Shown piece after piece: positions 11,623-33,018 of a stretch of DNA of 64,000 bases. Under the pieces are notes generated by a model that was not told where the DNA came from, searched no databases, and saw only the letters and a program-made list of their open reading frames with translations. Location: contig WVZY01000032.1 of the NCBI GenBank assembly GCA_011772205.1, positions 1 to 64,000 on the forward strand, in the 5' to 3' direction. A program made the position numbers and the translations under genes. The stretch is from Candidatus Latescibacterota bacterium. Lineage in GTDB: Bacteria; Krumholzibacteriota; Krumholzibacteriia; WVZY01. The first letter of the stretch is position 1. Each line of letters begins with the position of its first letter.

Positions 11623-11623
11623 G

Positions 11624-12157
11624 ATGAAGTTTTTTGGATTCCTGCTCGTTGCCGTCGGATTTTTGGCCGGAGCCTATTATCTAACCGGGGCCAGAGGGAG
11701 CGTGATCGGGACCGGCTTTGCGATTTCTTTTGCAATTGCGATTGTGGGGATTGTGATATTGCGAGTGGTAACTCGAAAGCGAAAGGGAGCAAAGGAAAAA
11801 GTCATCTCTGAAGTGAAAACAGTGGAGCAGTGCATTTCGCGTCTTGCGGAAGGTGTCGACAAGTTGGAAAAAGAAAAAGACACGATCGATGTGTACGATC
11901 TTTCCAAAGAGATCGATGATCGATTTAACGAAGATCTGGAACGATTTGTCGATGCCCGCGAAAGCATCGCCATTGCTTTTGGATTGAATGCCTACGCAAG
12001 CGTGATGAGCCACTTCGCCGCTGGGGAGCGTTACCTGAACCGCGTCTGGTCATGTTCCGTGGATGGGTACATTGATGAAGCGCACATCTACCTGGGTCGC
12101 GCGCGGGACCAGTTTGTCGAAGGACACACCGAGCTAAAGAAACTCACTTTGAGCTAA
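11624..12157 (+). CDS. Membrane protein with coiled coil, unknown function
   Basis: The 177-residue protein has two N-terminal hydrophobic segments (about 3-20 and 26-46). A basic stop-transfer stretch (RKRKGAK) follows, then a cytoplasmic part with a predicted coiled coil (about 60-100, SRLAEGVDKLEKEKDTIDV). The ATG at 11624 is fixed by GGAGG 7 nt upstream. It directly follows the OPT gene and may be an accessory or regulatory partner of that transporter. No known family is recognised. Confidence 0.75.
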   Translation: MKFFGFLLVAVGFLAGAYYLTGARGSVIGTGFAISFAIAIVGIVILRVVTRKRKGAKEKVISEVKTVEQCISRLAEGVDKLEKEKDTIDVYDLSKEIDDRFNEDLERFVDARESIAIAFGLNAYASVMSHFAAGERYLNRVWSCSVDGYIDEAHIYLGRARDQFVEGHTELKKLTLS

Positions 12158-12357
12158 TTCTCGCATTGCGAAATCGCTTTTGGCGTTGACGTAATTATAG
12201 CTCTGCGGTGCAAGTGGGTGCGGTCACGCTTCACGATGTAACCTTTCGTGTCAAACTTCGTACAGTATTCAGTGGCAGCTCCCATTCTAATGTCATATTC
12301 TAATGTCATAAGAAAACCTGAACATTCCTCAAAACAGGGATTGCAGAGGTGGTGCAA

Positions 12358-13647
12358 GTGCATTTTTTTCAATTTATCGCAGTGCAAACAGTGCTGATGT
12401 CGGTTGTGATTTGTTTCAGTTTCTCAAACGCTTTGTCAGGGGAGCAGAACAAATCTCTCGAGTCCATCATCAGTGAGATGCTCGTATCGACTAAAGCCGA
12501 TCTCATCGAATTTCGGCGCGACTTGCACCGACACCCTGAAATGTCCGGCAAAGAGAAACGCACTGCAGGCGTTATTGCGGAGCGTTTGCGTTCACTTGGG
12601 CTGGAGGTGCAAACCGGCTTGGGCGGCTATGGTGTCGTTGGCCTCCTTCGGGGCACAAAGCCGGGACCCGTCGTGGCCTATCGCGCCGACATGGATGCCG
12701 TCCCATCTGACGCTCCCGATCCGGTCCCGTTTGCTTCCGAGACTCCCGGTGTGCGGCACATATGCGGGCATGACGTGCACGTGAGCGTTGCGATCGGGAT
12801 CGCCAAGGTGCTCGCATCGGTGCGGGAGCAGCTCCCCGGAACGGTAAAGTTTATTTTTCAACCTTCAGAGGAGGATGTGGAAGGGGCAAAGGCCATGATA
12901 AGCGACGATGTGCTGTCGGATCCGGAGCCTTCTGCGATTTTTGCCGTTCACTGCGCGCCGCTCGAGGTCGGACAGATCGGCAGTAGGGAAGGCATGATGT
13001 TGCCGGGATTGGACGTCGTGAACGTGACGCTGTCGGGTGAGGGGGATCTCGAAGCTGCCGCCGATAAATGCGCGCAGATCATCTCAGGTGTGAGCACGGT
13101 TGGGGCAATGCTACACGGCGACGAATCGGCGGCCGAAGCATCCAAAGAGAACACCGAAGCGGATGGATTCATCTCTGCAGATGTGTTCAGCTCCGAACAC
13201 AACCCGGCCGAGAACCAGTGGATTGTGACGGGAACGGTTCGTGCATCGAGCGATGCCCACCACTCGCGCGCGAGAAAGAGTATCGAAAAGGGCCTTGCCG
13301 CTATGGAAATCCAGGGAGTTTCCCACGAGCTCACATACATTGACCGAGCGATTCCGCCGGTTATGAATAACCCGGCACTGGTTCGTCGCTCCAACGACGT
13401 CATCCGGTCGGTCTTGGGTGACGAAGCGATCCGCATTATCAAAGAACCGCCGCCATATTTCAGCGAGGACTTCGCGTTCTATCAGCAGCGGATTCCCGGC
13501 GTAATGTTCTTCCTCGGTGTATCGAATGAGGCGGAAGGTATTTTCGGGTTACCACACCACCCGATGTTTACGGTTGACGAGGATGCCATAGCGATCGGTG
13601 CCAAGGCCATGAGCATGCTGTTAGTGGACTACCTCAAAACGCACTAG
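12358..13647 (+). CDS. Secreted M20D amidohydrolase (IAA-amino-acid/AbgB-like)
   Basis: A GTG start at 12358 is preferred because AGAGG lies 8 nt upstream; GTG at 12349 is also in frame. A signal peptide (VLMSVVICFSFSNALS) precedes a full M20 core. It has YRADMDAVP with the metal-bridging Asp, HICGHDVHVS with metal-binding Cys and His, PSEED with the catalytic Glu pair, SEDFAFY, and PHHPMF near the end. M20D enzymes cleave amide bonds between amino acids and acyl groups, as in indole-acetyl-amino acids or p-aminobenzoyl-glutamate. Export suggests it acts in the periplasm. An AbgT-family transporter lies 650 bp downstream, consistent with conjugate salvage. Confidence 0.85.
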   Translation: MHFFQFIAVQTVLMSVVICFSFSNALSGEQNKSLESIISEMLVSTKADLIEFRRDLHRHPEMSGKEKRTAGVIAERLRSLGLEVQTGLGGYGVVGLLRGTKPGPVVAYRADMDAVPSDAPDPVPFASETPGVRHICGHDVHVSVAIGIAKVLASVREQLPGTVKFIFQPSEEDVEGAKAMISDDVLSDPEPSAIFAVHCAPLEVGQIGSREGMMLPGLDVVNVTLSGEGDLEAAADKCAQIISGVSTVGAMLHGDESAAEASKENTEADGFISADVFSSEHNPAENQWIVTGTVRASSDAHHSRARKSIEKGLAAMEIQGVSHELTYIDRAIPPVMNNPALVRRSNDVIRSVLGDEAIRIIKEPPPYFSEDFAFYQQRIPGVMFFLGVSNEAEGIFGLPHHPMFTVDEDAIAIGAKAMSMLLVDYLKTH

Positions 13648-14061
13648 GATGCTCCGATTCGCCGAGCGTTTACTCTGAGATAAAAAGGGGAAGCGTCAAA
13701 TCTCCGGAAGAAAGGCGCGTTGCGCAGGCGATCAAGGTTCTCAAGACCTACGATTACGACGAGTACCGTGAGACGATCAAGGAACTGGGAGAAATGGGCC
13801 CTGTGGCGGTCAAACCGCTGATCAAGGGGCTACGAAATGGGGATGTGTTTGTGCGGTGTGCTTGTGCGGAGGGCCTTTGCAAGATCAAGGACAGTAAGGC
13901 CGTTGGTCGAAAGGATCAACGACCGCTACTGCGGCGGCACCCTAGCGGCACAGTACGCGCTGAACCAGCTAACGGGCGTGAACTATTACGACAGCTACGA
14001 GGGATGGAAAGAGTGGTACAAGAAAGAATACGGCACCGAGTATGTCGGCAGATACCGCTGA
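13648..14061 (+). pseudogene. Frameshifted HEAT-repeat protein remnant
   Basis: One frame from about 13648 reads CSDSPSVYSEIKRG, then EMGPVAVKPLIKGLRNGD and CACAEGLCKIKD, a HEAT-like pattern. Near 13895-13905 the coding sense jumps to another frame that continues RPLVERINDRYCGG, then WKEWYKKEYGTEYVG and stops at 14061. No start codon with a ribosome-binding site precedes the first part. The leading Cys suggests the mature end of a former lipoprotein whose signal peptide is gone. Joining the two frames gives a coherent protein tail, so decay is more likely than two small genes. Confidence 0.6.
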
Positions 14062-14291
14062 ATCATCTTCGATCGCAAACCTTCGCCATACATCACTACC
14101 GAAGCTAAAAGTCTTCCGTTTTCCTCGTAAGTGAGCAATCGGTGCCTCGCGTTATAATGGGATCCTCGTTTTTTCCCAGTGGAAAGGAAGCTTTTTAACT
14201 AGCAAAAATTGAAAAAACCGCATATTTTCCCTTCTTTGACGAGGCTGTATGCCGGTTACCGTATCGATTCGCCGAATACCAAGAGCGAACA

Positions 14292-15782
14292 ATGGAAAAG
14301 TTTTTCAGATTCATAGAGAGAGTGGGGAACAAGCTCCCTCATCCCCTCATTCTATTCGTTTATCTATGCGTTATCATCCTGACTTTTTCTTTTATCACCG
14401 GCCTGCTGAAATGGTCTGCCGTGAATCCCAAAAGCGGGGAACTGATCGTGGCTTCCAATCTTATTTCGGCGCAGGGTTTTCAGGATTTCATGGAGAAGAT
14501 GATAACAAACTTTACGCATTTCGCTCCGTTGGGGCTGGTGCTCGTGATGCTCATGGGTGTTGCGATAACCGAGAGGAGCGGATTTCTGGAGGCGCTCATA
14601 CGAAGCGTCATTGGAAGAGTCCCCTCGTGGCTGGTCATCCCCGTCATCGTGATGGCCGGCGCCTGTGGAAATATCGGATCTGATGCCGGAATCGTCGTCG
14701 TCCCACCGATCGCCGCCATAATTTTCAAACGAATGGGAAAGCATCCGCTTGCAGGACTCGTCCTCGGTTATGCCGCCGCCACAGCCGGCTTTACTGCGAA
14801 TTTGATACCTGCCGGGACCGATGTCCTGCTTGCAGCGATTACGACGGAAATCTATGGGTCCTTTGAACCAGGCGCTGAAGTCGTTGCGACGTGTAATTGG
14901 TATTTCATGATTGCCGCTACGTTTGTTCTTGCTTTTGTTGGGACTTTTGTGGCCAAGAAATACACGATCCCCATGTGCGAAAGATATAAACTCACCGGCA
15001 TGGAGGAAACGACAGAAAAAGCGTTGACACCCAGAGAAAAGAAGGGACTTTTGTGGGCCATTATTGCAGGGATCATCTATTTAGCCGTGATCTCTTTGAC
15101 GATCGTTCCGGAAAACGGCATTTTAAGGCATCCCGACGCAGCGCAGTTTATGAGGTCTCCCTTCTTCAAAAGTCTGATACCTATCTTGTTCTTTCTTTTT
15201 GTCATAGTAGGTTACGTTTACGGGAAGATCGTCGGAACGATCAAAAAATCGGGAGATGCTGCCCATTTCATGATAGACGGCGTCCGTGATCTCGCGCCCT
15301 ACATCGCATTGGTTTTCATGATTGCCCAGTTCATCGCGTTCTTCAATTGGTCGCATTTGGATCAGATCATATCGATCAAGGGCGCAGAGCTGCTGAAATC
15401 ATCCGGCTTTTCGGGAATCCCGCTTTTCATTTCGTTCATAATCATCGCCATGTTCTTGAATCTGTTCATTGGGAGCGGATCGGCAAAGTGGGCAATAATG
15501 GCGCCCGTTTTCGTGCCGATGTTCTATCACATAGACTTGACTCCCGCCTTCACTCAGCTTCTGTACCGTATCGGTGATTCCATCACGAATGGGATCAGCC
15601 CCCTGTATACGATGTTTCCGCTGATACTCGGCTGGGTGCAGCAGTATGACGAGGATGCGGGAATCGGAACCGTTTCCAGCCTGCTTCTGCCGTATGCGAT
15701 ATTCACCTTTGTTGCGTGGACGATTCTGCTCATCATATGGTATGCGATTGGCCTTCCGATTGGAGTAGGGGAGTCTATCTGA
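14292..15782 (+). CDS. AbgT-family transporter
   Basis: The 496-residue protein has about 11-12 hydrophobic segments and the AbgT layout: an N-terminal VGNKLPHPLILFVYL, a re-entrant GNIGSDAGIVVVPPIAA (about 122-138), GYAAATAGFTANLIPAGTD (about 158-176), and a second re-entrant region NLFIGSGSAKWAIMAP (about 394-409). AbgT proteins import p-aminobenzoyl-glutamate or export antifolates such as sulfonamides (MtrF/YdaH). The M20 enzyme upstream favours the salvage role, but the two genes are separated by a pseudogene and are not one operon. A TATAAT at 14153-14158 lies upstream without a clear -35 box. Confidence 0.92.
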   Translation: MEKFFRFIERVGNKLPHPLILFVYLCVIILTFSFITGLLKWSAVNPKSGELIVASNLISAQGFQDFMEKMITNFTHFAPLGLVLVMLMGVAITERSGFLEALIRSVIGRVPSWLVIPVIVMAGACGNIGSDAGIVVVPPIAAIIFKRMGKHPLAGLVLGYAAATAGFTANLIPAGTDVLLAAITTEIYGSFEPGAEVVATCNWYFMIAATFVLAFVGTFVAKKYTIPMCERYKLTGMEETTEKALTPREKKGLLWAIIAGIIYLAVISLTIVPENGILRHPDAAQFMRSPFFKSLIPILFFLFVIVGYVYGKIVGTIKKSGDAAHFMIDGVRDLAPYIALVFMIAQFIAFFNWSHLDQIISIKGAELLKSSGFSGIPLFISFIIIAMFLNLFIGSGSAKWAIMAPVFVPMFYHIDLTPAFTQLLYRIGDSITNGISPLYTMFPLILGWVQQYDEDAGIGTVSSLLLPYAIFTFVAWTILLIIWYAIGLPIGVGESI

Positions 15783-15849
15783 GTACAATCGTTCTAAACC
15801 AGGTTATGCGAATCCATAAATAAACCATTCCCGGCCATTCACATGCATG

Positions 15850-15887
15850 AAAAAGCCCCGCTTACTTCTGCAGGCAGGGCTTTTTTT
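15850..15887. terminator. Bidirectional intrinsic terminator
   Basis: AAAAAGCCC and GGGCTTTTTTT form a stem between the convergent AbgT and malate dehydrogenase genes. A-runs and T-runs flank it on both sides, so it can serve both directions. Confidence 0.8.
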
Positions 15888-15903
15888 GAATTCTAGACGT
15901 CGC

Positions 15904-16914
15904 CTACAGTTTCTCAAGCATCTCGTCCACTTCGTCGCAGGTTTTGCGGACGGCGCCAACAGAGTGCTTGAACGCCTCCTTTTCCTCGTCGGTGAGGTCG
16001 AGTTCGACGACTTGCTCCACTCCGTTTTTGCCAAGGATGGCCGGTACGCCCACGAACAGGCCGTCGACGCCGTACTCACCCTCGAGCTTGGCGCATGTCG
16101 GAAGGATCTTACGCTTGTCGTAGACGATGGCTTCAGCCATGTCCAGCGCTGCCCAGGCAGGTGATACGAATGCCGAGCCGAAGCCGAGCAGGCCGACCAC
16201 TTCGCCGCCGGCCTTGCGGGTGCGTGTCTCGATGGCACTGAGGATTTCCTCGTCGAGGAACTTGGATACCGGGATGCCGGCGATCATACAGGAGCTGCGC
16301 ACCGGAACCATAGTATCACCGTGGCCCCCCAGGACGATTGCGTTTACGTTCTCCACGGAGACTTTTGCTGCATCGGCTACGAAGTAGCAGTAACGACCCG
16401 AGTCGAGCTGGCCTGCCATTCCCATGAGCTTGTTCTTGGGCGGGTTGAGCCGCTTGTCCAGGGTGTATACAATGGCGTCCAGCGGATTCGCTATGGATAT
16501 GATAATAGCATCGGGGCAGTTCTGCCTGATGCCCTCCGCCACCTGATTGGTGACCTTGAGGTTTACGGCCAACAGCTCCTCGCGGGACGGGTAGGTGCCA
16601 TCCGGCCGTGCCTTACGTGGTATACCAGCGGTGTTGATGATCAGATCCGAGCCGGCTATGGCCGAGTAATCCTTTGATCCAACCAGGCGGACATCGCTGC
16701 GGATAGTGGGCAGGCCCTCGGAGATGTCCAAGCATTTTCCGATTGAAACGGATTGCTTTTTGGTGACGTCCTGGCGTTCTGGTGGATCTTCCGGGTTCAC
16801 GATCGGCGCCGGATCGCTGAGGCCAACCTCCCGCGATAACCCTCGTCTGGCGATTTCCTGCGCTAAAACACCGCCGATGTATCCGCCCCCAATGAGACCG
16901 ATCTTATTGAGCAT
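15904..16914 (-). CDS. mdh: Malate dehydrogenase (LDH-like)
   Basis: The 336-residue protein has an N-terminal Rossmann motif GLIGGGYIGG, the substrate loop TAGIPRK with the conserved Arg, INPL-like SIANPLDA, catalytic His in GGHGDTMVP, and the C-terminal VGVPAILGKNGVEQV. It should interconvert malate and oxaloacetate with NAD(H) in the cytoplasm. It differs from common enzymes by extra residues after PRK (ARPDGTYP) and a longer region after the beta-2 Asp (about 38-58). A lactate or other 2-hydroxyacid specificity cannot be excluded. The ribosome-binding site AGGAG lies 7 nt before the ATG. The gene is alone on its strand up to the FAD oxidoreductase. Confidence 0.88.
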   Translation of the reverse strand: MLNKIGLIGGGYIGGVLAQEIARRGLSREVGLSDPAPIVNPEDPPERQDVTKKQSVSIGKCLDISEGLPTIRSDVRLVGSKDYSAIAGSDLIINTAGIPRKARPDGTYPSREELLAVNLKVTNQVAEGIRQNCPDAIIISIANPLDAIVYTLDKRLNPPKNKLMGMAGQLDSGRYCYFVADAAKVSVENVNAIVLGGHGDTMVPVRSSCMIAGIPVSKFLDEEILSAIETRTRKAGGEVVGLLGFGSAFVSPAWAALDMAEAIVYDKRKILPTCAKLEGEYGVDGLFVGVPAILGKNGVEQVVELDLTDEEKEAFKHSVGAVRKTCDEVDEMLEKL

Positions 16915-17252
16915 TCCTGCGCTCCTTTCAGTGAGGATGTGCGTCCCAGGCCGCCTTTATGTTGTCAAAAGTCTTGGGACAAACTGCGTCGAGAATTAAG
17001 AGGGATGTTGCCAATTTGTCGGCACCCGAAGATAATACCGCAGATGTTCGCTCGCTTCAACTTCATTGTCTGCTCATCGATTCATTCCAGCCGCCTCGGA
17101 ACCTGCCGGGCACTATCTAGGCAAACATGAGTATGGCTTGCCGAATCAGCCAACCTCTCATGCAGCCCCGATCTTGCGCGCCGCTCGTGTACCGCTTGGA
17201 ATCAGCAGGGCAGGCGTGCCAGCACTGCGCTCAAGCCTTATGGACAGCGCCT
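16915..17252. other. Intergenic, no gene seen
   Basis: No coding frame with support, no terminator hairpin and no repeat could be identified between the FAD oxidoreductase and mdh. Confidence 0.5.
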
Positions 17253-18428
17253 TTATCCTGCAATGCTGTACTCGTACTGCCCGCGGATTTCATCTCTTTC
17301 GGCGTAGCGGCTCGCGCGAAAAATGTGAGGATCGAACTCGGGTTCGCTTTTCCCTGTTATCATGTCGGCAGCCATGACTCCAACAGCGGGGCCGAGCTTG
17401 AATCCGTGACCACTAAATCCCGAACAAATGTAGAAACCGCTGTCGGGGGGCACTTCATCGACAATGGGGTGCCAGTCCGGCGTAATAGCATAGAGTGAAG
17501 CAAATCCGCCCCTGCTCTCACTCCGCTCTAAACCCGGGTAGCGTCGCACCAGTCGCTCACCCAGGTCCGAGACGAAGTCGAAATCGACACGCTCTATATA
17601 ATTATCGGGATCGACGACGGCATCGGCCTCGGATGGATCAACGAGGCCTGCCAGCGTCAAGTCGCCTGTCTCCGACCGGAAGTAGGTCGCGTTGACGAAA
17701 TCAGCAACAACGGGGTGCGACCCCTCATGATCGGCCGGACGCTTGAAGAAGGCAACCTGCACGCGGCAGGCGTTGATGGGTACTTCCACTCCGGCCATTC
17801 TGGCCACTTGCGCGCCCCAAGCGCCGGCGCAGTTCAAGACAACCGGCGTATCCAGCTCGTTCCTGGAGGTCTCGACACCGATAACCCTACCGCCCTCGAA
17901 CCGGACGCCTTTGGCCTCAGTTCCAGGGAAAACCGTAACGCCTAGACGGCGGGCGGCGCGCTCGTATGAAGTGACGGTGAGATGGGGATCCGCGTATCCG
18001 GAGTCCGGCTCGTAGGCTGCGGCCACTAGATCCGTAAAGGCCAATCCCGGCATGATCTCTCTTAGCGCCTCGGGAGCGACCAGCTCCGCCTGAATGCCTA
18101 TTCGGTGCTGCAGTGCCAGATTGGCTTGCAGGCCCTCTCGGTCTTTCGCATCTACTACAAGAACGAAGCCGGTCCGCCTAAAACCGCAGTCTCCTCCAAC
18201 TTGCTCCTCGAAGTCCTCGAAAACCCGAAGGCCATAGAGCGCCATGCGTGCAGTCAATTCGTTCGAGTAGTGCTGGCGAATAATTGCGGATGACCGGCCC
18301 GTGGGTCCTTCACCGATGGCCCCTTTCTCGACCAGGGCGATCTTCAGTCCGCGCCTGGCCAATTGAAGGGCGCTGCTGCATCCCATGATGCCTGCTCCTA
18401 TAATGACGGCGTCGTATGTTTGCCTCAT
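17253..18428 (-). CDS. FAD-dependent DAO-family oxidoreductase
   Basis: The 391-residue protein begins with the dinucleotide-binding motif VIIGAGIMGCSSALQLARRG, then LVEKGAIGEGPTGRSSAIIRQHY, the FAD-linked region of the D-amino-acid/sarcosine oxidase family. A second FAD motif, FYICSGFSGHGFKLGPAVG, lies near the end. The size and motifs match sarcosine oxidase beta-type or glycine/proline dehydrogenase-like enzymes, which oxidise secondary or N-methyl amino acids. It ends 340 bp before mdh, in the same direction. GGAGG upstream supports the ATG. The electron acceptor cannot be decided, because no alpha, gamma or delta subunit is adjacent. Confidence 0.85.
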   Translation of the reverse strand: MRQTYDAVIIGAGIMGCSSALQLARRGLKIALVEKGAIGEGPTGRSSAIIRQHYSNELTARMALYGLRVFEDFEEQVGGDCGFRRTGFVLVVDAKDREGLQANLALQHRIGIQAELVAPEALREIMPGLAFTDLVAAAYEPDSGYADPHLTVTSYERAARRLGVTVFPGTEAKGVRFEGGRVIGVETSRNELDTPVVLNCAGAWGAQVARMAGVEVPINACRVQVAFFKRPADHEGSHPVVADFVNATYFRSETGDLTLAGLVDPSEADAVVDPDNYIERVDFDFVSDLGERLVRRYPGLERSESRGGFASLYAITPDWHPIVDEVPPDSGFYICSGFSGHGFKLGPAVGVMAADMITGKSEPEFDPHIFRASRYAERDEIRGQYEYSIAG

Positions 18429-18686
18429 AAGGTATCCTCCGGACAGCTGAGCATCTTAGTTGCTCAGGTAGGCTTCGAGGGTCACGTCATGATCATCGTG
18501 TATCCACTTCGTCAGTAGGATCATCGGTTCAGGATATAGCATTGAACGCTACTATTACAAACACCAAAGGCACCGGAACAGGCAGTACAGGGAGTGTGCA
18601 CGTTTGGGAAGTTGGTGAGGAGAAAAGAAAAAGGCGGTTTCTCTCAGGAACTCAAAACCACGAAGGAGGATACATCGTTTTCAGGA

Positions 18687-21332
18687 CTAGACTTCGCTTT
18701 CTGAGGGAGGCGTTGCGTGGCCGGAATCGAAGAGGGAAGTGCTCGCCCTTGGCTTTTGAAAACTCCGAATGCGACCACTGTCACGCTCCTGATGCAAATC
18801 TCGCCACATCAGCTTCTCATTATGCTGTGACGAATCCGTCTTGATGACGATTGCCGTGATATCGTCTTGAAACACGTTCGCGCAGTGCTTGGTCACTTCG
18901 GTGTGCAGTGCTTCAACGATCTCCGCGGCACATTTGTCACGATTCGTCCTGACGATTGCAAGAGCGTGCTCGACTCCGAACGATGCGCCGTCCGAAGACT
19001 CCGCTTCTATTACTCCATCGGTGAGGAGCACAATGAGATCCCCTGGATCAAGGATTCGTGTTGAGGTTCGCTCAAAACGAGCATCCTCGAGAACACCCAG
19101 CGGCAGGCCCGTGCTCTCCAAAGTCGCTTTAACAGCGTTCTCCCGGTCGAGCAGGTAACATGTGGTATGACCTGCACTGGCATATTCAAATGAGCGCGTT
19201 TCGGGATCGAAACGAGCGAGTATCAGCGTCACGAAATCTTCCGCGCCGGTATCGTTTGCAATCAATAGGTTGGTAATTCTCAATATCTCGGCTATATCAA
19301 GATTCGATCGTGCGAGTGCATGGATATACGCCCTTGCTGAAGCCATGAGTAGAGCAGGGCCGAAACCATGCCCGCTTGCATCACCGACAACGAACACCAA
19401 TTTCCCATCGGGCATCTGCAGATAGTCGAAATAATCGCCGCCGGTCGCAACAGCCGGTCTCGATGCGCCGCCGATATCGATTCCGGCAACCGTCGGCGCC
19501 GCATTGGGGAAGAGCTTCTGTTGAATTTTTCTGGCAATATCGAGTTCTTCCCGGTTGGCTTTGAGCTGTCTCTCAGTCTCCTCCGCGCGCTTGCGCTGAG
19601 TAATATCCCGGGTGATGATGACTCCGCCGGCAAGATTTCCTTTTTCATCTCTTAGTGCCTGCCCGCCGACACTCAACCACGCCCCCTCCGGCTTTTTGGG
19701 ATTTCGAATGAACATCTCGACTTCGTCGGTGTTCTTCCCATGAATGGCGCGGACCAGAGGCAGCTCCTTGGTCGGATATGGAGTTTCACAGTCTGGTAAA
19801 AAGACACCATAGCGCGAAGCCCATTCCCCGGGATCCGTTTCAGTAGCGCCGACGCCAACCATTTCTTCTGCTGCAGCATTGAACATCAAGAACTGCCCCC
19901 TCTCGTCGGCGACGATCACCCCTTCACTCATACCGTTGAAAACCGATTTGAGAATCTTCGTTTGCTGAACGAGTGCTTCTTTGGATTCCAGAAGTCGTAC
20001 GTTCGTTTTTTGCAGCTCCTGCGCTGTCTTGAAAAGCTTCTCCTCCGTAAGCTTCAAATCGGTGATATCTTTACCGCTCGAGAGGAAATGGGTAATTTCT
20101 CCTCGTTCATTCCGAATAGGAGAAATGGTTTTCGCTTCGTAGAACAGGTCGCCGTTTTTCTTCTTGTTGATTACGACGCCTCTGTAAGGCTGTCCGGAGA
20201 GAATCATGTTCCACATGTCCTTGTAGAAAGCGGCGTCGTGCTTTCCCGATTTCAATATATTGCTTTTCTTTCCGATGAGTTCCTGCTCCGAATATCCGCT
20301 GATCTTCTCGAAGCTTGGATTGACTTCCAGAACAACTCCATTCAAATCGGTGATCATCCAATGATCCGCCGTTTGCCGAGAAGCTTTCTTATACTTGTGC
20401 AATCCCTTTTCGATTCGCTTGCGGTGAGCCACATCGGCCGCCAGCGAGAGAGTTGCGACCGCGATGACACCCACGAATCCCTGCAGGCTCAGGATCCCTT
20501 CGCTGTTGCCTTCACCTGCGAAGGGGCCGTAACCTTTTGCGCATCCCCAGACGGCTTCCACAGCGAGGAAGAAGATCACCGTAGCGGCCTCTCGCTGGCT
20601 GAAACGGACGGCAGGCCACATGAGGAGGGGGATAGATATGTAAGCCAAAGGCAGCCCCAAGCCGGCGTCCGTATACCAGCTTCCAAGAAAAAACTGCCCC
20701 GCGGCGATGAGAAGCAACAACAGTATCAATATCTCAGCCACTTGCCTGCGGTCCCATCCAGGCTTGGATCTTTGACACCATGCGATCAAAACGGGAGTCG
20801 TCACGAGAATGCCGGTTGTGTCACCCAGCCACCAAGTCGTCCAGGTCGATGCATAGCTGCCCCAACTTATGATGCCGTATGATGAGAGGCTAGCAACACC
20901 CAAAGTGGCGGCAATCACAGAGCTAAGAGCTGCGGGAAAGACTGCAAATTTGAAGATATTCTTCGCTTTTAGAAACAGATCGTCGAGACCGATGAGACGG
21001 TGCAGCAGGAATGCAGCTGCTACAGCCTCGAGCGTGGCCCCCGCACCGATGAGAGATCCAACCATCAAAGATTTGATGAGTGTCGCAGTGCTTGTCGGAT
21101 CGAAGAAGGCCCATGTATTCGCCAAGAGTGATCCGATCAAAATGCCCGGCCACAGTCGGTACCCAAACAGCAGGACAGCTGCCAGAGCGATCCCGGACGG
21201 GAACCACACCGCCGTCACGTTCCCGGGCGGAATCGCGAACACCTGGCCCAATCTCGCCATCACGTAATAGACTCCAACAAGAATCGCAGTTGCCAACAGA
21301 ACGTGCCATCCAGATCTAAGATTGTATTTCAT
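18687..21332 (-). CDS. MASE1-PAS-PAS-SpoIIE (PP2C) phosphatase
   Basis: The 881-residue protein starts with a MASE1-type membrane sensor (about 10-300, GNVTAVWFPSGIALAAVLLFG). Two PAS domains follow (about 325-435 and 455-580). The C-terminal domain (about 600-820) is SpoIIE/RsbU-like with metal-binding motifs GGDYFDYL, GDASGHG, LLTDGVIEAE and FQDDITAIV. Such proteins dephosphorylate an anti-anti-sigma factor in response to a signal, switching on a stress sigma factor or other partner. No anti-sigma or STAS gene lies nearby. The last 45 residues are a low-complexity polar tail. It is paired, across a 1.3-kb gap, with another large phosphatase of the same class. Confidence 0.92.
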   Translation of the reverse strand: MKYNLRSGWHVLLATAILVGVYYVMARLGQVFAIPPGNVTAVWFPSGIALAAVLLFGYRLWPGILIGSLLANTWAFFDPTSTATLIKSLMVGSLIGAGATLEAVAAAFLLHRLIGLDDLFLKAKNIFKFAVFPAALSSVIAATLGVASLSSYGIISWGSYASTWTTWWLGDTTGILVTTPVLIAWCQRSKPGWDRRQVAEILILLLLLIAAGQFFLGSWYTDAGLGLPLAYISIPLLMWPAVRFSQREAATVIFFLAVEAVWGCAKGYGPFAGEGNSEGILSLQGFVGVIAVATLSLAADVAHRKRIEKGLHKYKKASRQTADHWMITDLNGVVLEVNPSFEKISGYSEQELIGKKSNILKSGKHDAAFYKDMWNMILSGQPYRGVVINKKKNGDLFYEAKTISPIRNERGEITHFLSSGKDITDLKLTEEKLFKTAQELQKTNVRLLESKEALVQQTKILKSVFNGMSEGVIVADERGQFLMFNAAAEEMVGVGATETDPGEWASRYGVFLPDCETPYPTKELPLVRAIHGKNTDEVEMFIRNPKKPEGAWLSVGGQALRDEKGNLAGGVIITRDITQRKRAEETERQLKANREELDIARKIQQKLFPNAAPTVAGIDIGGASRPAVATGGDYFDYLQMPDGKLVFVVGDASGHGFGPALLMASARAYIHALARSNLDIAEILRITNLLIANDTGAEDFVTLILARFDPETRSFEYASAGHTTCYLLDRENAVKATLESTGLPLGVLEDARFERTSTRILDPGDLIVLLTDGVIEAESSDGASFGVEHALAIVRTNRDKCAAEIVEALHTEVTKHCANVFQDDITAIVIKTDSSQHNEKLMWRDLHQERDSGRIRSFQKPRASTSLFDSGHATPPSESEV

Positions 21333-21783: not shown

Positions 21784-22089
21784 CTACGCTTCTCGAACCG
21801 GGGAGGATCGGAAAAAGTCGCGGACCAGTTCGGTGTACAAGCCTGAATCGGCGTAAACGAACACTTCAATGCGCGGATCCGTTACGAGCGCGTTCAATAG
21901 GATGCGGATACTGATGATTGATATCTTGTGGATAAAATCGGAAAGTTGTGGATAAGATTGCGAGGCTGTGGATAAGTAGATATCAAAAAAACGAGAGATA
22001 ACCCCCAATCTTCCGTGTTGCGATTCGCCCATCAGAGGCCCACGCGGCAACCGCTTCGCTGAAAAATCACCTGAGAGCAGAGGGCACAC
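21784..22089 (-). CDS. Doubtful ORF spanning the DnaA boxes
   Basis: A 101-residue frame with a GTG start reads through all three DnaA boxes. Its C-terminal third (NALVTDPRIEVFVYADSG, then LYTELVRDFF) looks protein-like; the first two thirds do not. The 20-bp box period is not a multiple of three, so the boxes are not a coding repeat. It may be the tail of a decayed gene or no gene at all. Confidence 0.2.
   Translation of the reverse strand: MCPLLSGDFSAKRLPRGPLMGESQHGRLGVISRFFDIYLSTASQSYPQLSDFIHKISIISIRILLNALVTDPRIEVFVYADSGLYTELVRDFFRSSPVREA
21927..21975 (+). promoter_or_regulatory. Cluster of three perfect DnaA boxes
   Basis: TGTGGATAA, the complement of the DnaA box TTATCCACA, occurs at 21927-21935, 21947-21955 and 21967-21975. 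The start-to-start spacing is exactly 20 bp, all in one orientation. GATATC flanks the array on both sides (21919-21924 and about 21979-21984). About 140 bp to the right begins an AT-rich stretch. This is what a replication origin or a DnaA-titrating or regulatory site looks like; no dnaA, dnaN or parAB gene is in the window. Confidence 0.7.
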
Positions 22090-22104
22090 GCAAAGACAAG
22101 GGGT

Positions 22105-22205
22105 ACTCTCGTTGTTATAATTTTATCCGGCTCGAAAAAAACTTGTCAACAAAAAAATTCATATTCTCAAAATTATAGCCTCTCCAAAGACATTAAATTA
22201 TCCCT
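22105..22205. other. AT-rich segment next to the DnaA boxes
   Basis: It is visibly A+T-rich with runs such as GTTATAATTTTAT, AAAAAAACTTGTCAAC and AAAATTATAG, in contrast to its surroundings. It could be a duplex-unwinding element if the boxes mark an origin. The stretch on to 22396 shows only small inverted repeats (CGCATT-GAATGCG near 22289). Confidence 0.45.
22122..22150 (-). promoter_or_regulatory. Possible leftward sigma-70 promoter
   Basis: Read on the minus strand, TTGACA (22150-22145) is followed after 17 nt by GATAAA (22127-22122), with TAAAAT just beyond. Transcripts would cross the DnaA boxes toward the MASE1 phosphatase gene. Confidence 0.35.
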
Positions 22206-22396
22206 CTGACTTCAAGCAATTTCGAGATAGCGGCATTTGCAAACAACACAGGCTCGAAGTCAAAAGCGCTTCCAATGAACGCTCCATCGCATTGAATGCG
22301 CTTCAGTTAGCGTGCATCTCGCCGGCAACGAACCCCAACAAAGCAAACATATATTTTAATTCAACAAGAAGATACACGATACTCTGAAAGGAGTTT

Positions 22397-22483
22397 ATGA
22401 AGGAAGAGGCGGAAGGGATTAGATGCCAAAACGGTGTTCCCGGTGCCAGCTCAATCTCTGGTTGGCAATCGGGAACACCGTGA
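22397..22483 (+). CDS. Possible 28-residue leader-like peptide
   Basis: An ATG at 22397 follows AAAGGAG with only 3 nt spacing and reads MKEEAEGIRCQNGVPGASSI to a TGA at 22481. The second half of the frame coincides with a 12-bp-stem hairpin whose 3' arm ends at the stop codon. It could be a leader peptide, or the match may be chance. Confidence 0.2.
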   Translation: MKEEAEGIRCQNGVPGASSISGWQSGTP

Positions 22484-22571
22484 ACAGGCTAACGTCTCAG
22501 CCACCAGAGCAGATCTAGGAGGTAAATCCAGCTCATAGGCCACCCCCTTTAACAAGGGTTGGAATTTACCT
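22431..22571. ncRNA. Two large adjacent hairpins, candidate structured RNA or terminators
   Basis: Hairpin 1 pairs ACGGTGTTCCCG (22431-22442) perfectly with CGGGAACACCGT (22470-22481), with an inner TGCCA/TGGCA pair. Hairpin 2 pairs AGGTAAATCCA (22520-22530) with TGGAATTTACCT (22560-22571), one bulge, with inner ACCCCCTT/AAGGGT pairing. On the minus strand hairpin 1 is followed by TTTT, so it may simply terminate the upstream phosphatase gene. Hairpin 2 has no T-run. No known RNA family is recognised. Confidence 0.45.
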
Positions 22572-22650
22572 GCCATATACGAATTGGATCGTACGCGGTG
22601 GCTCGTGCAAAAAATGTTCCTGTTGATACCTCAAAGGGGTGCCAGAAGGT

Positions 22651-25143
22651 CTAAGAGCCTTTGTAATGGGCAATTACGGTGGTGATGTCATCGTCCTGAC
22701 GCCCGCCTCCAAAGGCGGTGACTTGATCAAAGAGGGCTTCTTGCAAGCTCTCAGGCGGCATGAATTTGTTCACCCGGAAAAACTCGATCAGGCGGGATTC
22801 TCCGAACTCCTCCTCTGTATCGCTTTTCTTTTGTTCGGTGATTCCATCTGTGTACAGACAAACCAAATCACCTACATTGATCTGAACTCTGCCTTCCTTG
22901 TATTTTCGATCCCTCTCGACACCCAACATCATCCCACCCTCGCTGAGGCGGTCGGTGTAATCCCGCTTAACGAGCAAGGGAGGACAGTGGCCGGCGTTCG
23001 AGAATCTCAACATCGAATTCTTTAGATCGATGACACCATAGAAAAAGGTCGCAAACTGTCCACTCTCCGCATTTTCACACAGGTATCGATTCAATGCCTC
23101 CGTCAATTCGCCGGGAGGCAACTGGTCCTTTAGTGCTATGTTTTTGAAAACAGCCTGGAGAGAAAACATCAGCATTGCCGCCGGAATTCCCTTGCCGCTA
23201 ACGTCTCCTACGGCAAGCGCAATATTATTGGAGTCCAACAGGAAGTAGTCGAAATAATCGCCTCCGACTTCTCTGGAACTCAACATTTGGCCGACGATAT
23301 CGATGGACGGATGCCTGGGCGGAGCCTTGGGCAGAAGGGAAAGCTGGATGTCCCGGGCAACGAGCACTTCTTTCATTAACCTTTCTTGCTCCATGGTTGC
23401 TTCATGGAGTGTCGCATTATCGAGGACGACGCCGAGATGTTCAGCGAACGTCTGCAGCAGCTCCGCATCTGCCCGGCTGTATGGAAGCTCGGATCGTTTC
23501 TCGCCTAGGAGCACAAAGCCAATCACATCCTCCAGCGATACGATGGGCAGGCAAACCGCTGCTTTTGTCGCGGTCAGAAACGCTCTCGAATCGGAATCGA
23601 AATTCCTCTGCTCCCAAACCTTATCCAGGTATTCAACCATCAGGGGTTTTCGATAACGGGAAAAGTACCTGGCCAGAAAGGAATTGGCGGTTATGGTCTT
23701 TGGAAGTGACGGAGAAGCTCCGGTCGCTTTTTCGAGAGAAAAATCTTCCTGACCCCGCTTAGTATATATCGCCACATACGATGGGCCGAGGAGCCTTTCC
23801 ACCCGATCGAAGAGGCAGTTGAAGATGTCATCCCTTCCGAGCTTTTTGGAGAGCTGCCGGTTGAACTCGACGACTTCCTCTTTGTATACATAATCTCCCC
23901 TGAAAAAGACGCGGTCAACGAGCCGCTGGACACGGTCCCTGGCAGGAGCGAATACAATGGATAAAACGAGGATGGCGAATATCGTGAAGCCCGAACGGCT
24001 CAAGTTGAATTCGCGCGTAAAGAAATCCCCAAGCATGTGGACGACCATGTAGTACACAGCAATGATTGCGCCCGTAAGGAATGCGTATACGAGGCTCTTC
24101 CGCATGACGACGTAGAGTTCGATTGCGCCGTGTTTGAGAATCGCGTAGGCGAATGATATCGAAATGAACGCCAAGCATAGAACGGATATCGATTCTCCCA
24201 GCGTATACGTTCCCGGGGATATTTGCCTCCATACGAGCACCGCTAGAAAAGGAACTATCCCGGCAACCGTTCCCGCAATGACGATCCGCAGGCGCCGCTT
24301 CTGCGCCGATGGGGAAGCCACGTAGTTCCGGATGAAGATCACGAGGGAAGCGACGAGATAAGCTGCTATATAAAGCGTCGTAACGGCGAGGATCAGTGTT
24401 ACGATTCCCTCGCTCTTCGGCATGAAGAAGAACTGTCTGATAACGAGATAACAATCCACTAGGTAGATCACCAAGGGAATGGCGAAGAGAAAAAGCGAGC
24501 GGAAAAGCTTCTTTCGCCCCCTGATTGGGTGAATCCAATCGGGAAATATAAGAAAGAAGTTCAGAAAGACTACGGGAAAACCCAGAATCGCGAGATCGTG
24601 GAACAGCTCGCCGAACAGCTGCAGGTGAGGAGATGCCACTACGGGACGATCCGTCAACAAGAATGCGATGAGCGTGCAGTTCAATGCGAACAAACCGCCA
24701 AGAAGGTCGGATCTCCGCAAATAGACCAGCACTCCAACGAGCAGAAACGTGAATGCAACGATGATGTAAGCAAAGTTCTTTCTGATCAGATGCGTCGGAA
24801 TCGCCGCGTAATCGACTACAACGTCGATAGTCTCGCCTTCTCGATGAATCGTATATTGCTGAGAAGAGAAATCTCTATTCGCGTGGACGAGATACCGGTA
24901 ATGGTTGAAATTCCTGACGCGGACTCCATCGATGGCAAAGATTTCGTCGCCGCGCTGAATATTGTTTCCGGCGTTGGGGCCAGCTTCTTCCACGTTCTGA
25001 ACGACGAGATTCTTCGTCTCGATACCGGAGTATGGGGTCTTCAGGACATCCCTGGAGCCCGGAAATTCGAGGATGACAACGGCGATAATGAACAATAAGA
25101 AGCAAATCCGGAGAACCATGCTGACGATCCGTCGGATTCCCAT
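22651..25143 (-). CDS. Membrane SpoIIE (PP2C) phosphatase with PDZ-like, 7TM and GAF domains
   Basis: The start is taken as the ATG at 25143, because AGGAGG lies 6 nt upstream and a membrane segment follows at once. The 830-residue product has one TM helix, an extracytoplasmic PDZ-like segment (about 40-115, VVQNVEEAGPNAGNNIQRGD, IFAIDGVRV), and about eight more hydrophobic segments (130-375). A GAF domain follows (about 430-590), then a C-terminal SpoIIE phosphatase (about 610-828) with GGDYFDYF, GDVSGKG, LYTDGITEQ and RQDDDITTV. It likely senses envelope conditions and dephosphorylates an anti-anti-sigma-like partner. None is encoded nearby. Confidence 0.9.
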   Translation of the reverse strand: MGIRRIVSMVLRICFLLFIIAVVILEFPGSRDVLKTPYSGIETKNLVVQNVEEAGPNAGNNIQRGDEIFAIDGVRVRNFNHYRYLVHANRDFSSQQYTIHREGETIDVVVDYAAIPTHLIRKNFAYIIVAFTFLLVGVLVYLRRSDLLGGLFALNCTLIAFLLTDRPVVASPHLQLFGELFHDLAILGFPVVFLNFFLIFPDWIHPIRGRKKLFRSLFLFAIPLVIYLVDCYLVIRQFFFMPKSEGIVTLILAVTTLYIAAYLVASLVIFIRNYVASPSAQKRRLRIVIAGTVAGIVPFLAVLVWRQISPGTYTLGESISVLCLAFISISFAYAILKHGAIELYVVMRKSLVYAFLTGAIIAVYYMVVHMLGDFFTREFNLSRSGFTIFAILVLSIVFAPARDRVQRLVDRVFFRGDYVYKEEVVEFNRQLSKKLGRDDIFNCLFDRVERLLGPSYVAIYTKRGQEDFSLEKATGASPSLPKTITANSFLARYFSRYRKPLMVEYLDKVWEQRNFDSDSRAFLTATKAAVCLPIVSLEDVIGFVLLGEKRSELPYSRADAELLQTFAEHLGVVLDNATLHEATMEQERLMKEVLVARDIQLSLLPKAPPRHPSIDIVGQMLSSREVGGDYFDYFLLDSNNIALAVGDVSGKGIPAAMLMFSLQAVFKNIALKDQLPPGELTEALNRYLCENAESGQFATFFYGVIDLKNSMLRFSNAGHCPPLLVKRDYTDRLSEGGMMLGVERDRKYKEGRVQINVGDLVCLYTDGITEQKKSDTEEEFGESRLIEFFRVNKFMPPESLQEALFDQVTAFGGGRQDDDITTVIAHYKGS

Positions 25144-25415
25144 GGCAAGCCTCCTGGGAACGCCTCGCAGGGGAGGATGTTTATCGTCCGAAGCGGAATA
25201 CGGTGCGAATTGCCCGTTCTCAGAGGCAAGCTTGCTGGGAAGCATCGAAGAGTGTCAATACGTTTTTGAACCGCTCCTGCGAGAGAACACCTCGCTCAGC
25301 GCTTCTTATTTCCGTGCGTACGGTTGTCGAGCCCGGCACAAAAGCCTTGCCCTGGGAGGTTGGAATATGCTATGTTGTTCGCGTTAACTCATTTAATAAG
25401 GAGGATTTATTCCGA

Positions 25416-30023: not shown

Positions 30024-31088
30024 TTAGAATATATTGGCGTAAGTGGCAAGCTTTTTCCGCACAAATGAGGCGAAGAAAGCTTCCTCTAAGAGGTGCTTTG
30101 GATCGATGGTGGAGGTTTTCAAAGTGAAGTCGACCCATCGTAGGTTTTCAAGGAGCATTTCGAGATCCGATTTTTCGAAGCGCATGGATTGGCGCGCCAA
30201 CTGCTCCACGGAATACTCGCTCCTGCCCATCCTGCCGGCGAGCCATCGGATTGAACCAGTTCCCCTGCGGGACTCTTCGGCGAGCGATTTGATGCGCAGA
30301 AGCTCGACGACTCGCTTGAGGAGCATTGCGAGAACGAACACCGGTTCTTCGCCAGCATCGATCAGCCTGTCCAGTCTTCTAACCAGCTCATGCACATTCT
30401 GGTCACGCGTGATGAGGTTTCGAACAGCGAACAGGTCTTCCGTCCGGTACTTGCCGACTACCTCGCTGACCACGCTGCGCGTTACCGATGTTGAACCGGC
30501 CGCATTTAGAGCAATTTTTTCGACTTCGTTGAGCAAGTCGCTCAGATTCGTTCCGACCGAGTCGATGAGTAGCTCGAGCGCGTCCTGCTCGATATCGAGC
30601 CCTTCCTTGCTGAGCCGGCTTTTCACTCTGGCCAGCGTTTCGGTCTCAGAGAGATGATCGAAGCGTATAGCCGCGCCTCGATCTTCCGCAGTTTTCTTCA
30701 TCGCTTTGAGCCGGACTGTATCGAGCTTGTCCACAGCCGACTCCGCGACAAACACGAGAGCGTCGGGAAATTTCCCGATTCGGTCTATAACCCAGTCCTT
30801 ATTGGCCGTCGAGAGATCTTCGAATCGCTTGAGAACAATTAGCCGATTGTCTGCAAACAGTGGAAAGCTTCTCATCCGGTCATCGAAAGCGGCTTTGTCG
30901 AATTCGTCGCCGTGGAAAATATCGAGGTTGAACGTGCGATTTCGTTCGGGCAGCACGGCCTGGATGATTTCGCTCAAAAATTCTTTCTTAAGATACTCCT
31001 CGGGCCCGTAGAGAAAATAAACGTCCCTGACGTCCCCCTTGCGGAGGGCTTCGAAAAGCTTTCTATAATCTTTGAGGGTTTTGGCCAT
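30024..31088 (-). CDS. holA: DNA polymerase III delta subunit
   Basis: The 354-residue product begins MAKTLKDYRKLFEALRKGD, followed by VYFLYGPEEYLKKEFLSEI, the standard start of HolA. Further signatures are FPLFADNRLIVLKRFEDLS, RSFPLF and the helical C-terminal collar (QSMRFEKSDLEMLLENLRWVD). It opens the beta clamp within the clamp loader. The ATG at 31088 lies 11 nt after the lptE stop. An in-frame TTG overlapping lptE is less likely. It follows lptE, the same order as in many Gram-negative bacteria. Confidence 0.92.
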   Translation of the reverse strand: MAKTLKDYRKLFEALRKGDVRDVYFLYGPEEYLKKEFLSEIIQAVLPERNRTFNLDIFHGDEFDKAAFDDRMRSFPLFADNRLIVLKRFEDLSTANKDWVIDRIGKFPDALVFVAESAVDKLDTVRLKAMKKTAEDRGAAIRFDHLSETETLARVKSRLSKEGLDIEQDALELLIDSVGTNLSDLLNEVEKIALNAAGSTSVTRSVVSEVVGKYRTEDLFAVRNLITRDQNVHELVRRLDRLIDAGEEPVFVLAMLLKRVVELLRIKSLAEESRRGTGSIRWLAGRMGRSEYSVEQLARQSMRFEKSDLEMLLENLRWVDFTLKTSTIDPKHLLEEAFFASFVRKKLATYANIF

Positions 31089-31099
31089 CGCCGTCCCGA

Positions 31100-31594
31100 T
31101 TACCAATCCTGGACCGTGAGGTTGAGAATCTGGTCCGTTATTTCATCGATGGCTTCCTTGAGCGCGTCTTCAAAGGACAGGCCCTCTTCGGACACTTCCA
31201 GAAAGTAGGAACCGTCTCCTTGGATCCTTTTATCTTTCCAAATCGGCTCGTTCAGTCGCCGGTTGAAGAGACTGACCTGCACGCTCACAACGACGTGATA
31301 TTCTTCGGCGTTGAGATCTCGATTGAAAGAGAATGGAAGATTCCTGAACTCGACGATGTCCCCTTCGAGAATTGCATCGGCATCATCCTCGTCCATCACT
31401 TTGAGGGTATTATCATCCACGAGGTTCTGGATGATCTTTTCTGTAACGCTGATTTCCAGACTTGGCTCGGTGGTCTTATTGGTAAAGAACGGAACGGCTA
31501 TGGACTTGATACCTTTGGCGGTACGGGAAGTTGTGCTGTACCAGCAACCGAACAATAGCAGTGGAATGAATAGCAGTGGAATTCTCCATTTCAA
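31100..31594 (-). CDS. lptE: LPS-assembly lipoprotein LptE
   Basis: The 164-residue protein has a lipoprotein signal ending LLLFGC (Cys17). The mature part has the LptE pattern: IKSIAVPFFTNKTTEPSLE, LTEKIIQNL, ADAILEGDIVEF and YHVVVSVQVSLFNRR. LptE plugs LptD in the outer membrane for lipopolysaccharide insertion. The start overlaps the stop of the response-regulator gene by 4 nt, so translation is coupled. Position before holA supports the call. Confidence 0.88.
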   Translation of the reverse strand: MKWRIPLLFIPLLLFGCWYSTTSRTAKGIKSIAVPFFTNKTTEPSLEISVTEKIIQNLVDDNTLKVMDEDDADAILEGDIVEFRNLPFSFNRDLNAEEYHVVVSVQVSLFNRRLNEPIWKDKRIQGDGSYFLEVSEEGLSFEDALKEAIDEITDQILNLTVQDW

Positions 31595-33018
31595 GACTTG
31601 CTCACTTCCTTGCTTTCATCCAGAGAGAAGCTTTTCATTCTATAACGGAGTTTGTCCCGTTTGATTTTGAGTAGCTTTGCCGTCTGGCTCTGGTTCCAGT
31701 CCGTCTGCTCCGAAGCTTTAAGGATCAATGCTCTTTCAAGATCGGAAACGACCTTGTCGAAATCAACTCCTTTTTCAGGAATCGGTTGGGACAGAATCCG
31801 GTCGATTCTCTTGCCGATGCTGCTCTCCTCGTACCCAGTTTTGGTGAACGGGAGGTACTCAGGTTTCAGGACCGGCCCGTCCTCGAGCAGAACGATGCGC
31901 TCCAGTACATTCCTCAACTCCCTGATATTTCCGGGCCAGGGGTAATCCAACATCATCTCCAGGGCGTCGCTTCTGATTTCTTCCATAGTCTTGTTGAATT
32001 TCTTGTTGAATTGATTGAGGAAGTATTTTGCGAAACTGATAAGATCTTCCTTCCGCTCCCGGAGAGGGGGAATGGTGAGTGGAACGACCTTTAACCGGTA
32101 GTAGAGGTCCGATCGAAAGCGGTTTTCTGCAACTTCTTGACTAAGATCCCTGTTTGTTGCGCTAATTACCCGGACGCTAACATGGATGTCCGCTGTCCCT
32201 CCCACTCTTCTGAAAACCATTCTCTCGAGAACCTTGAGCAGCTTGACCTGAATGGTGAGGCTCATCTCGCCGATCTCGTCGAGAAATAACGTTCCCCGGT
32301 TCGCCATTTCGAGGAGGCCGAGCTTCTGTGTTTTCGCATCTGTGAAAGCGCCCTTCTCGTGACCGAAGAGCTCGCTTTCGAGCAGCTGTTCTGGAAGGCT
32401 GGCACAGTTGATATCGAGAAAAGCTTCTTTCGCGCGGTTGCTGTACTGGTGGATGAGGCGGGCGACCATCTCCTTTCCGACGCCGCTCTCCCCTTCGATG
32501 AGTACCGTTGTGGTGTCCGTCTTGGCAACTTGTTGGGCGATGTCATAGACTTTCTTCATCGCCTTGCTTTCCCCGGTAATGTATTCGAAACCCGTGCCGA
32601 GATCCATCTGCCGCTTCAGCTGGAGGACTTCGCGACCCAGGCGTTTGCTCTCGAGACCCTTATCGATGACGAAAAGCAGCTGCTCGAGATTGATGGGCTT
32701 GCTTACGAAATCATATGCCCCGCCCTTCATCGCCTCTACCGCCGTCTCGATGTCTCCGAACGCCGTTATCATCACAACGCAAATCTCGGGGAGAACCGCC
32801 TTGATTTTTCGAAGAACTTCGAGCCCGTCCATATCGGGAAGCTTCAGGTCCAGAAGGACGAGATCTGGAATGTGCTGCCTCGCTATTTCAACGGCTTCAT
32901 GGCCGGTCTTCGCCGTTAAGGCTTCATAGCCTTCCTGCACCAGCGTCTTTTCCAGGAAAAAGCGAATCGTGTCCTGGTCATCAACCAGAAGGATGACTGA
33001 CTTCACTTGATTCTCCAT
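31591..33018 (-). CDS. NtrC-family sigma-54-dependent response regulator
   Basis: The 475-residue protein has a receiver domain (about 6-120) with acidic pair DD13-14 and phospho-acceptor Asp57. An AAA+ activator domain follows (about 145-375) with Walker A GESGVGKE (176-183) and Walker B LFLDEIGEM. A Fis-type helix-turn-helix closes it (NQSQTAKLLKIKRDKLRYRM, about 440-460). The sigma-54 contact loop reads GAFTDA (223-228) instead of the commoner GAFTGA. Its start overlaps the kinase gene by 38 nt. It should activate sigma-54 promoters; five candidate sites are found in this window. Confidence 0.95.
   Translation of the reverse strand: MENQVKSVILLVDDQDTIRFFLEKTLVQEGYEALTAKTGHEAVEIARQHIPDLVLLDLKLPDMDGLEVLRKIKAVLPEICVVMITAFGDIETAVEAMKGGAYDFVSKPINLEQLLFVIDKGLESKRLGREVLQLKRQMDLGTGFEYITGESKAMKKVYDIAQQVAKTDTTTVLIEGESGVGKEMVARLIHQYSNRAKEAFLDINCASLPEQLLESELFGHEKGAFTDAKTQKLGLLEMANRGTLFLDEIGEMSLTIQVKLLKVLERMVFRRVGGTADIHVSVRVISATNRDLSQEVAENRFRSDLYYRLKVVPLTIPPLRERKEDLISFAKYFLNQFNKKFNKTMEEIRSDALEMMLDYPWPGNIRELRNVLERIVLLEDGPVLKPEYLPFTKTGYEESSIGKRIDRILSQPIPEKGVDFDKVVSDLERALILKASEQTDWNQSQTAKLLKIKRDKLRYRMKSFSLDESKEVSKS

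Follow-up and report, generated by a model that had tools for sequence, protein, structure and literature searches.

The question raised by this locus is whether three perfect DnaA boxes lying close to an AT-rich segment mark an origin of replication and, if they do not, what such an array could be doing there. The sequence analysed, hereafter the window, comprises the first 64,000 nucleotides of contig C30 in a genome of 4.13 Mb (G000) that is assembled in 81 contigs and is 96.5% complete. The region that looks like an orphan origin holds two conserved genes, one for a noncoding RNA and one for a microprotein, which annotation would probably overlook, and these represent a larger and more lasting result than the box array itself.

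The DnaA-box array and the position of oriC

The array and the repeat that flanks it consist of the following elements, where RNA-A is the noncoding RNA described in the next section:

21918–21926, plus strand: left arm of an inverted repeat, 9 bp, TTGATATCT, flanking the array
21927–21935, plus strand: DnaA box 1, perfect sequence match, TGTGGATAA
21947–21955, plus strand: DnaA box 2, perfect sequence match, TGTGGATAA
21967–21975, plus strand: DnaA box 3, perfect sequence match, TGTGGATAA
21978–21986, minus strand: right arm of the inverted repeat, 9 bp, TTGATATCT, overlapping the final bases of the RNA-A U-run

As the first-pass annotation had reported, the copies of TGTGGATAA starting at 21927, 21947 and 21967 are perfect, lie on a single strand and follow each other in steps of exactly 20 bp. 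It had missed the inverted repeat, whose arm TTGATATCT has just two copies in the window, one on each side of the array. The array starts 10 bp past the U-run of RNA-A, in non-coding DNA, and the spacer sequences between its boxes are not alike. When a first-order Markov model of the window is used to estimate box counts, around 20 perfect boxes per genome are expected by chance alone, and the lone TTGTGGATAA sites found elsewhere in the genome are mostly intragenic and background-like; the expectation for same-strand triples within 41 bp is approximately 1e-9 per window and 1e-7 per 4.13-Mb genome. A scan of the whole genome found perfect same-strand pairs separated by no more than 30 bp only in the array and at oriC. 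The 9-mer of the array is identical to the box present at the oriC of the same genome and upstream of dnaA in the relative G014, and, since the oriC of the latter carries tandem perfect boxes beside dnaA, TGTGGATAA is a box that the phylum uses.

The genome has one copy of dnaA, on contig C12, with perfect boxes directly upstream of it at 146324 (minus strand), 146346 (minus) and 146357 (plus), which places oriC at approximately 146.3 kb of that contig. The order of genes there, named from their translations, is mnmE, a jag-like gene, yidC, rnpA, the boxes, dnaA, dnaN, recF, a short ORF, gyrB and gyrA, and the cumulative GC skew of C12 drops over about 145 kb and climbs from exactly the oriC point. 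On C30, no minus-to-plus change of GC skew was found at the array; the sole skew change of this contig (window positions ~10000–20000) is weak, lies near 15 kb and runs from plus to minus, the sign opposite to that of an origin. The absence of dnaA, dnaN, gyrB and parAB from the surroundings of the boxes, also stated in the first-pass annotation, was borne out by Pfam for the ten neighbouring genes, and the nearest replication gene found encodes a holA-like DNA polymerase III delta subunit (30024–31142). Of the attributes of an oriC, therefore, the array has the cluster of boxes; it has neither the skew minimum nor the dnaA neighbourhood, nor, as discussed below, an adjoining AT-rich unwinding element.

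A conserved noncoding RNA beside the boxes

The array lies between two SpoIIE-type genes separated by a 1.3-kb gap, in which the segments ~21980–22158 and 22429–22573 retain 75–80% identity in other genera. The first of these segments corresponds to RNA-A and its promoter, and the elements of this part of the locus are:

22651–25245, minus strand: PDZ-GAF-SpoIIE (PP2C-type) phosphatase, 864 aa (Pfam), conserved upstream neighbour of the micro-ORF described below
22150–22205, no strand assigned: AT-rich, UP-element-like stretch upstream of the −35 box (base composition)
22120–22149, minus strand: sigma-70 promoter of RNA-A, TTGACA (22149–22144), N18, TAAAAT (22125–22120), 11 of 12 consensus matches
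21985–22113, minus strand: RNA-A, noncoding RNA of ~129 nt with paired 5' and 3' ends and an oligo-U end (fold, covariation, covariance model)
~22032–22060, minus strand: apical core of RNA-A, AGCGAAGCGGUUGCCGCGUGGGCCUCUGA (sequence)
18687–21332, minus strand: MASE1-PAS-SpoIIE protein, 881 aa (Pfam), the first gene to follow RNA-A and the boxes

Read along the minus strand, the order is thus SpoIIE phosphatase, sigma-54-like element, micro-ORF, hairpin, sigma-70 promoter, RNA-A, U-run terminator, three boxes and MASE1-PAS-SpoIIE gene. The AT-rich stretch noted beside the boxes is genuine, with a GC content of 28.7% at 22112–22212, the most AT-rich 101-mer in the 64 kb. It was considered as an unwinding element for the boxes and rejected, because it stands about 130 bp away from them with the RNA-A gene intervening and is itself the promoter of that gene. 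The −35 box is conserved in all the RNA-A copies listed, the −10 box and the end of the RNA are also kept in relatives, and the DNA upstream of TTGACA is likewise AT-rich in many of them.

RNA-A itself folds with a z-score of −3.45. A first covariance model, built from nine sequences and run on 80 genomes of the phylum, detected it in 19 of them, belonging to four of the eight families. Over all 19, standard pairs occupy 92.4% of the pair cells, against 77% in shuffles, and 21 of the 34 pairs have changed on both sides; the covariation score is 0.424, compared with 0.164 for shuffles and at most 0.10 for slid controls. The alignment was fitted to the structure of the model and its figures consequently lean toward it, yet the slid controls and the changes in the closing helix are clear. 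RNA-A is a covarying, rod-structured RNA family with a conserved promoter and terminator. Its apical core reads AGCGAAGCGRUUGCCGCRYGGGCCUCUGA in families f1, f2 and f5 and has diverged in f4, with forms such as AAGCGAAGCGAUCUUGCUGCUCAGGCCUCUGA; in f6, no copy was found even at E=10, save one chance fragment. In most f4 and f5 copies a tRNA gene comes next, which its anticodon loop suggests to be tRNA-Arg(CCU).

RNA-A resembles 6S, SRP and other housekeeping noncoding RNAs in being small and stable-looking, with a sigma-70 promoter, a closing stem with paired ends, a U-run end and one copy per genome, and differs from them in its distinct apical core and in having no match in Rfam, a search of which returned no family and only chance miRNA matches. 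RNA-A is neither 6S nor SRP RNA: the sole 6S match of the genome is at C30:92172–92354 (minus strand) and its only small-SRP match is at C8:325807–325907. That 6S RNA gene is located on the same contig as RNA-A, at a distance of approximately 70 kb. The family is unannotated and apparently undescribed.

The relatives also inform on the age of the array. Among the 18 other RNA-A loci, a perfect box was found nearby in just one, that of G005, from a different genus, where a single perfect box lies 25 bp behind RNA-A in the same orientation as in the window; the number of boxes expected within 100 bp of RNA-A over those 18 loci is about 0.01 at the Markov-model rate. Since G005 is alone in this respect, the association between boxes and RNA-A is not ancestral, and the array is young, although the box of G005 hints at a single site of greater age. 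The three-box array as such is species-specific.

Possible roles of the array

Our preferred reading, to which we give a probability of roughly 0.6, is that the array is an extra-oriC cluster for DnaA binding, with a titration or regulatory function, placed behind a strong stable-RNA gene in a manner reminiscent of datA. In E. coli, the glyV-X-Y tRNA operon precedes datA, and transcription reading through from it controls the locus (PMC10950094). Like datA, the array is a non-coding box cluster, remote from oriC and placed immediately after the terminator of a strong stable-RNA unit (PMC10950094). The two differ in their boxes, which in datA are several, of mixed affinity and grouped around an IHF site, and in the array are three, all perfect and on the same strand; the IHF consensus WATCAANNNNTTR is absent within ~2.6 kb of the array. 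Of the hallmarks of a datA-type locus, a non-coding cluster of perfect boxes at a distance from oriC was found, and an IHF site at a defined spacing between the boxes was not; as datA, a locus that binds DnaA and lowers initiation, requires that site, we say of the array only that it may work like datA and do not file it as such. By analogy, DnaA would bind the three boxes, which share one orientation and fall on almost the same side of the helix, and build a small oligomer; this oligomer would titrate DnaA, and read-through from RNA-A could tune the occupancy of the array, as glyV-X-Y read-through does at datA. Our best guess is a small DnaA sink or regulatory platform, although several points tell against it: the array is not conserved, the IHF consensus is missing, three boxes make a small sink, and some 20 perfect boxes are expected per genome by chance. 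Were this reading correct, the array would be an independent case of the datA arrangement, in which the transcription of a stable RNA may meet the control of replication.

Other bacteria offer further points of comparison. The core boxes of DARS1 and DARS2 are not known to form a uniform same-strand array with a 20-bp period as those of the window do. The DnaA-box clusters of B. subtilis outside oriC are thought to buffer free DnaA, and their joint removal leads to early initiation, according to PMC5295017, which cites Okumura 2012 for the former. B. subtilis has six such clusters, whereas in the present genome a single array remote from oriC was seen, plus a looser cluster at 13 kb from oriC. 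The latter (C12:133081–133133) is composed of TTGTGGAAAA (minus), TTGTGAATAA (minus) and TTGTGGATAA (plus) and is found near apparent M23 peptidase and ParB genes. In another genome of the phylum, G002, two perfect same-strand boxes occur 23 bp apart in an intergenic region (L078:992–1023), with no dnaA on that stretch.

Three other explanations of the array deserve to be weighed against a DnaA-binding cluster of the kind just outlined. The main rival, which we consider unlikely though far from negligible, takes DnaA on the boxes as a roadblock to RNA-A read-through, or as a regulator of the MASE1-PAS-SpoIIE gene that would couple a signalling phosphatase to replication. The placement of the boxes between the RNA-A terminator and the next same-strand gene, together with the orientation common to all three, would suit such a role; however, they precede the start codon (21332) by ~595–645 bp, a promoter consensus scan found no promoter overlapping them, and relatives do not keep the arrangement. 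Less probable still is that the resemblance to DnaA boxes is incidental and that the repeats are the target of a different protein, for instance an initiator of the iteron type or some unrelated regulator, or are what is left of a mobile element. The direct repeats two helical turns apart, enclosed by a perfect 9-bp inverted repeat and restricted to one species, speak for this explanation, as does the iteron-like geometry of the array. Iterons, however, are usually near-identical across their full length and the spacers here differ; moreover, the 9-mer is the exact box of the genome's own oriC and of G014 upstream of dnaA, and Pfam identified no rep gene among the ten genes examined.

The third explanation, that the array is a replication origin (either the main one or a secondary one) unwound at the AT-rich segment, is the least credible. 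It draws on the fact that ~290 bp hold both the three perfect boxes and the 101-mer with the highest AT content in the window, and it is contradicted by the canonical oriC at the skew minimum of C12, by the lack of a minus-to-plus skew change on C30 and by the nature of the AT-rich stretch, which is a conserved promoter and has the RNA gene that it serves between itself and the boxes. As regards the main origin, this explanation is already refuted by the test that the first-pass annotation had itself set, a clear oriC elsewhere at a GC-skew minimum and no skew change at the array, and with it the oriC considered there. Of the two options left there for boxes lacking dnaA as a neighbour, an origin away from dnaA gives way to the oriC of C12, whereas a secondary DnaA-binding locus is, judging by the sequence, the best reading.

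A microprotein gene linked to a SpoIIE-type phosphatase

The second conserved segment of the gap (block B, 22429–22573) was considered as another structured RNA, since both of its strands give good folds. It was reclassified as coding because its relatives show synonymous codon changes in an ORF of only 15 codons. The elements of this gene are:

22607–22620, minus strand: sigma-54-like −24/−12 motif, GGAACATTTTTTGC (motif match)
22561–22571, minus strand: leader arm, AGGTAAATTCC, complementary to micro-ORF codons 3–6 (22529–22520)
22542–22549, minus strand: ribosome-binding site of the micro-ORF, AAGGGGGT (sequence)
22489–22536, minus strand: micro-ORF of 15 codons, MSWIYLLDLLWWLRR, followed by a TAG stop (conserved family)
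22431–22482, minus strand: strong hairpin just after the micro-ORF, 12 bp perfect and longer with mismatches (fold)

A search of the 80 genomes with one strict degenerate DNA pattern for the core found the motif [ILV]D[LI][LF]WWL[RK] in 53 of them, nearly always once, while the reversed control gave no match. The 56 loci that were parsed (the window and 55 others) encode 14–23 residues, with versions such as MLWIYLIDLLWWLRR, MQKIYLIDLLWWLRR, MKQINLIDLLWWLRR and MRIELVDLFWWLKKR. Both tryptophans, the aspartate and the leucine after the tryptophan pair are invariant in these loci, as the search pattern itself demands; third codon positions vary freely or synonymously, and a clear ribosome-binding site is present at nearly all 56. 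The hairpin 3' of the micro-ORF recurs in most of the relatives inspected. Pairing of the leader arm with codons 3–6 would leave the ribosome-binding site and the start codon in a loop, and a comparable pairing between leader and first codons, enclosing the ribosome-binding site, is possible in family f1.

The genomic context of the micro-ORF is equally constant. A gene with a SpoIIE domain is found upstream of it, on the same strand, at 51 of the 54 loci that could be checked; at two of the remaining three the SpoIIE gene is on the other side, and the third is a second copy of the micro-ORF with no such gene. This copy, longer than the usual one (MTPEILFGLMVVDILWWLRKINH), was found at L181 (G077, contig C99). 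The micro-ORF, in short, is coding, conserved and linked to the phosphatase gene. With 14–22 codons, it ranks among the shortest recognisable conserved microprotein families, and it is apparently undescribed: its core sequence is printed nowhere in the literature searched, which, being limited to open-licence papers, is weak evidence of novelty.

The product shares with short hydrophobic bacterial peptides such as type I toxins a length below 25 aa and a hydrophobic character, and ComS-like double-tryptophan pheromones have a WW motif near the C-terminus, as it does. It departs from type I toxins and similar peptides in being encoded by a single-copy, phylum-wide and SpoIIE-linked gene. Nor was a signal of an antisense antitoxin seen in the duplexes between RNA-A and the micro-ORF mRNA, since for 22 of the 23 genomes their energies were no better than those of shuffled sequences (z mostly −1 to +1.5), a weak test that ignores intramolecular structure and accessibility.

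Expression of the micro-ORF may depend on alternative sigma factors. A sigma-54-type GG-N10-GC element is present 67–98 nt upstream of the start codon at all 24 parsed loci of families f1, f2, f4 and f5, and rpoN occurs in 78 of the 80 genomes; a −24/−12 element in a fixed place, together with rpoN, is what a member of a sigma-54 regulon would have, and suggests that the micro-ORF is one. Many f6 loci carry TCAAG-N14-16-GCCGA instead, an uncontrolled motif match that resembles a sigma-28 promoter. These promoter motifs and the constant link with SpoIIE make the role of the microprotein directly testable.

Judging from synteny only, we would guess that the microprotein associates with the membrane and regulates the membrane phosphatase encoded beside it. 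One may go further and envisage a phylum-wide module formed by a membrane SpoIIE-type phosphatase, a membrane microprotein of 14–22 aa that would tune it under sigma-54- or sigma-28-type promoters and, for four of the eight families, a structured noncoding RNA of ~125 nt, with the array coupling the module or the RNA to the replication cycle in the present genome; taken as a whole, this proposal is doubtful and is offered tentatively. Approximately 9 kb from the micro-ORF, at 31591–33030 on the minus strand, there is a gene for an NtrC-type sigma-54 response regulator, a possible activator of the micro-ORF promoter.
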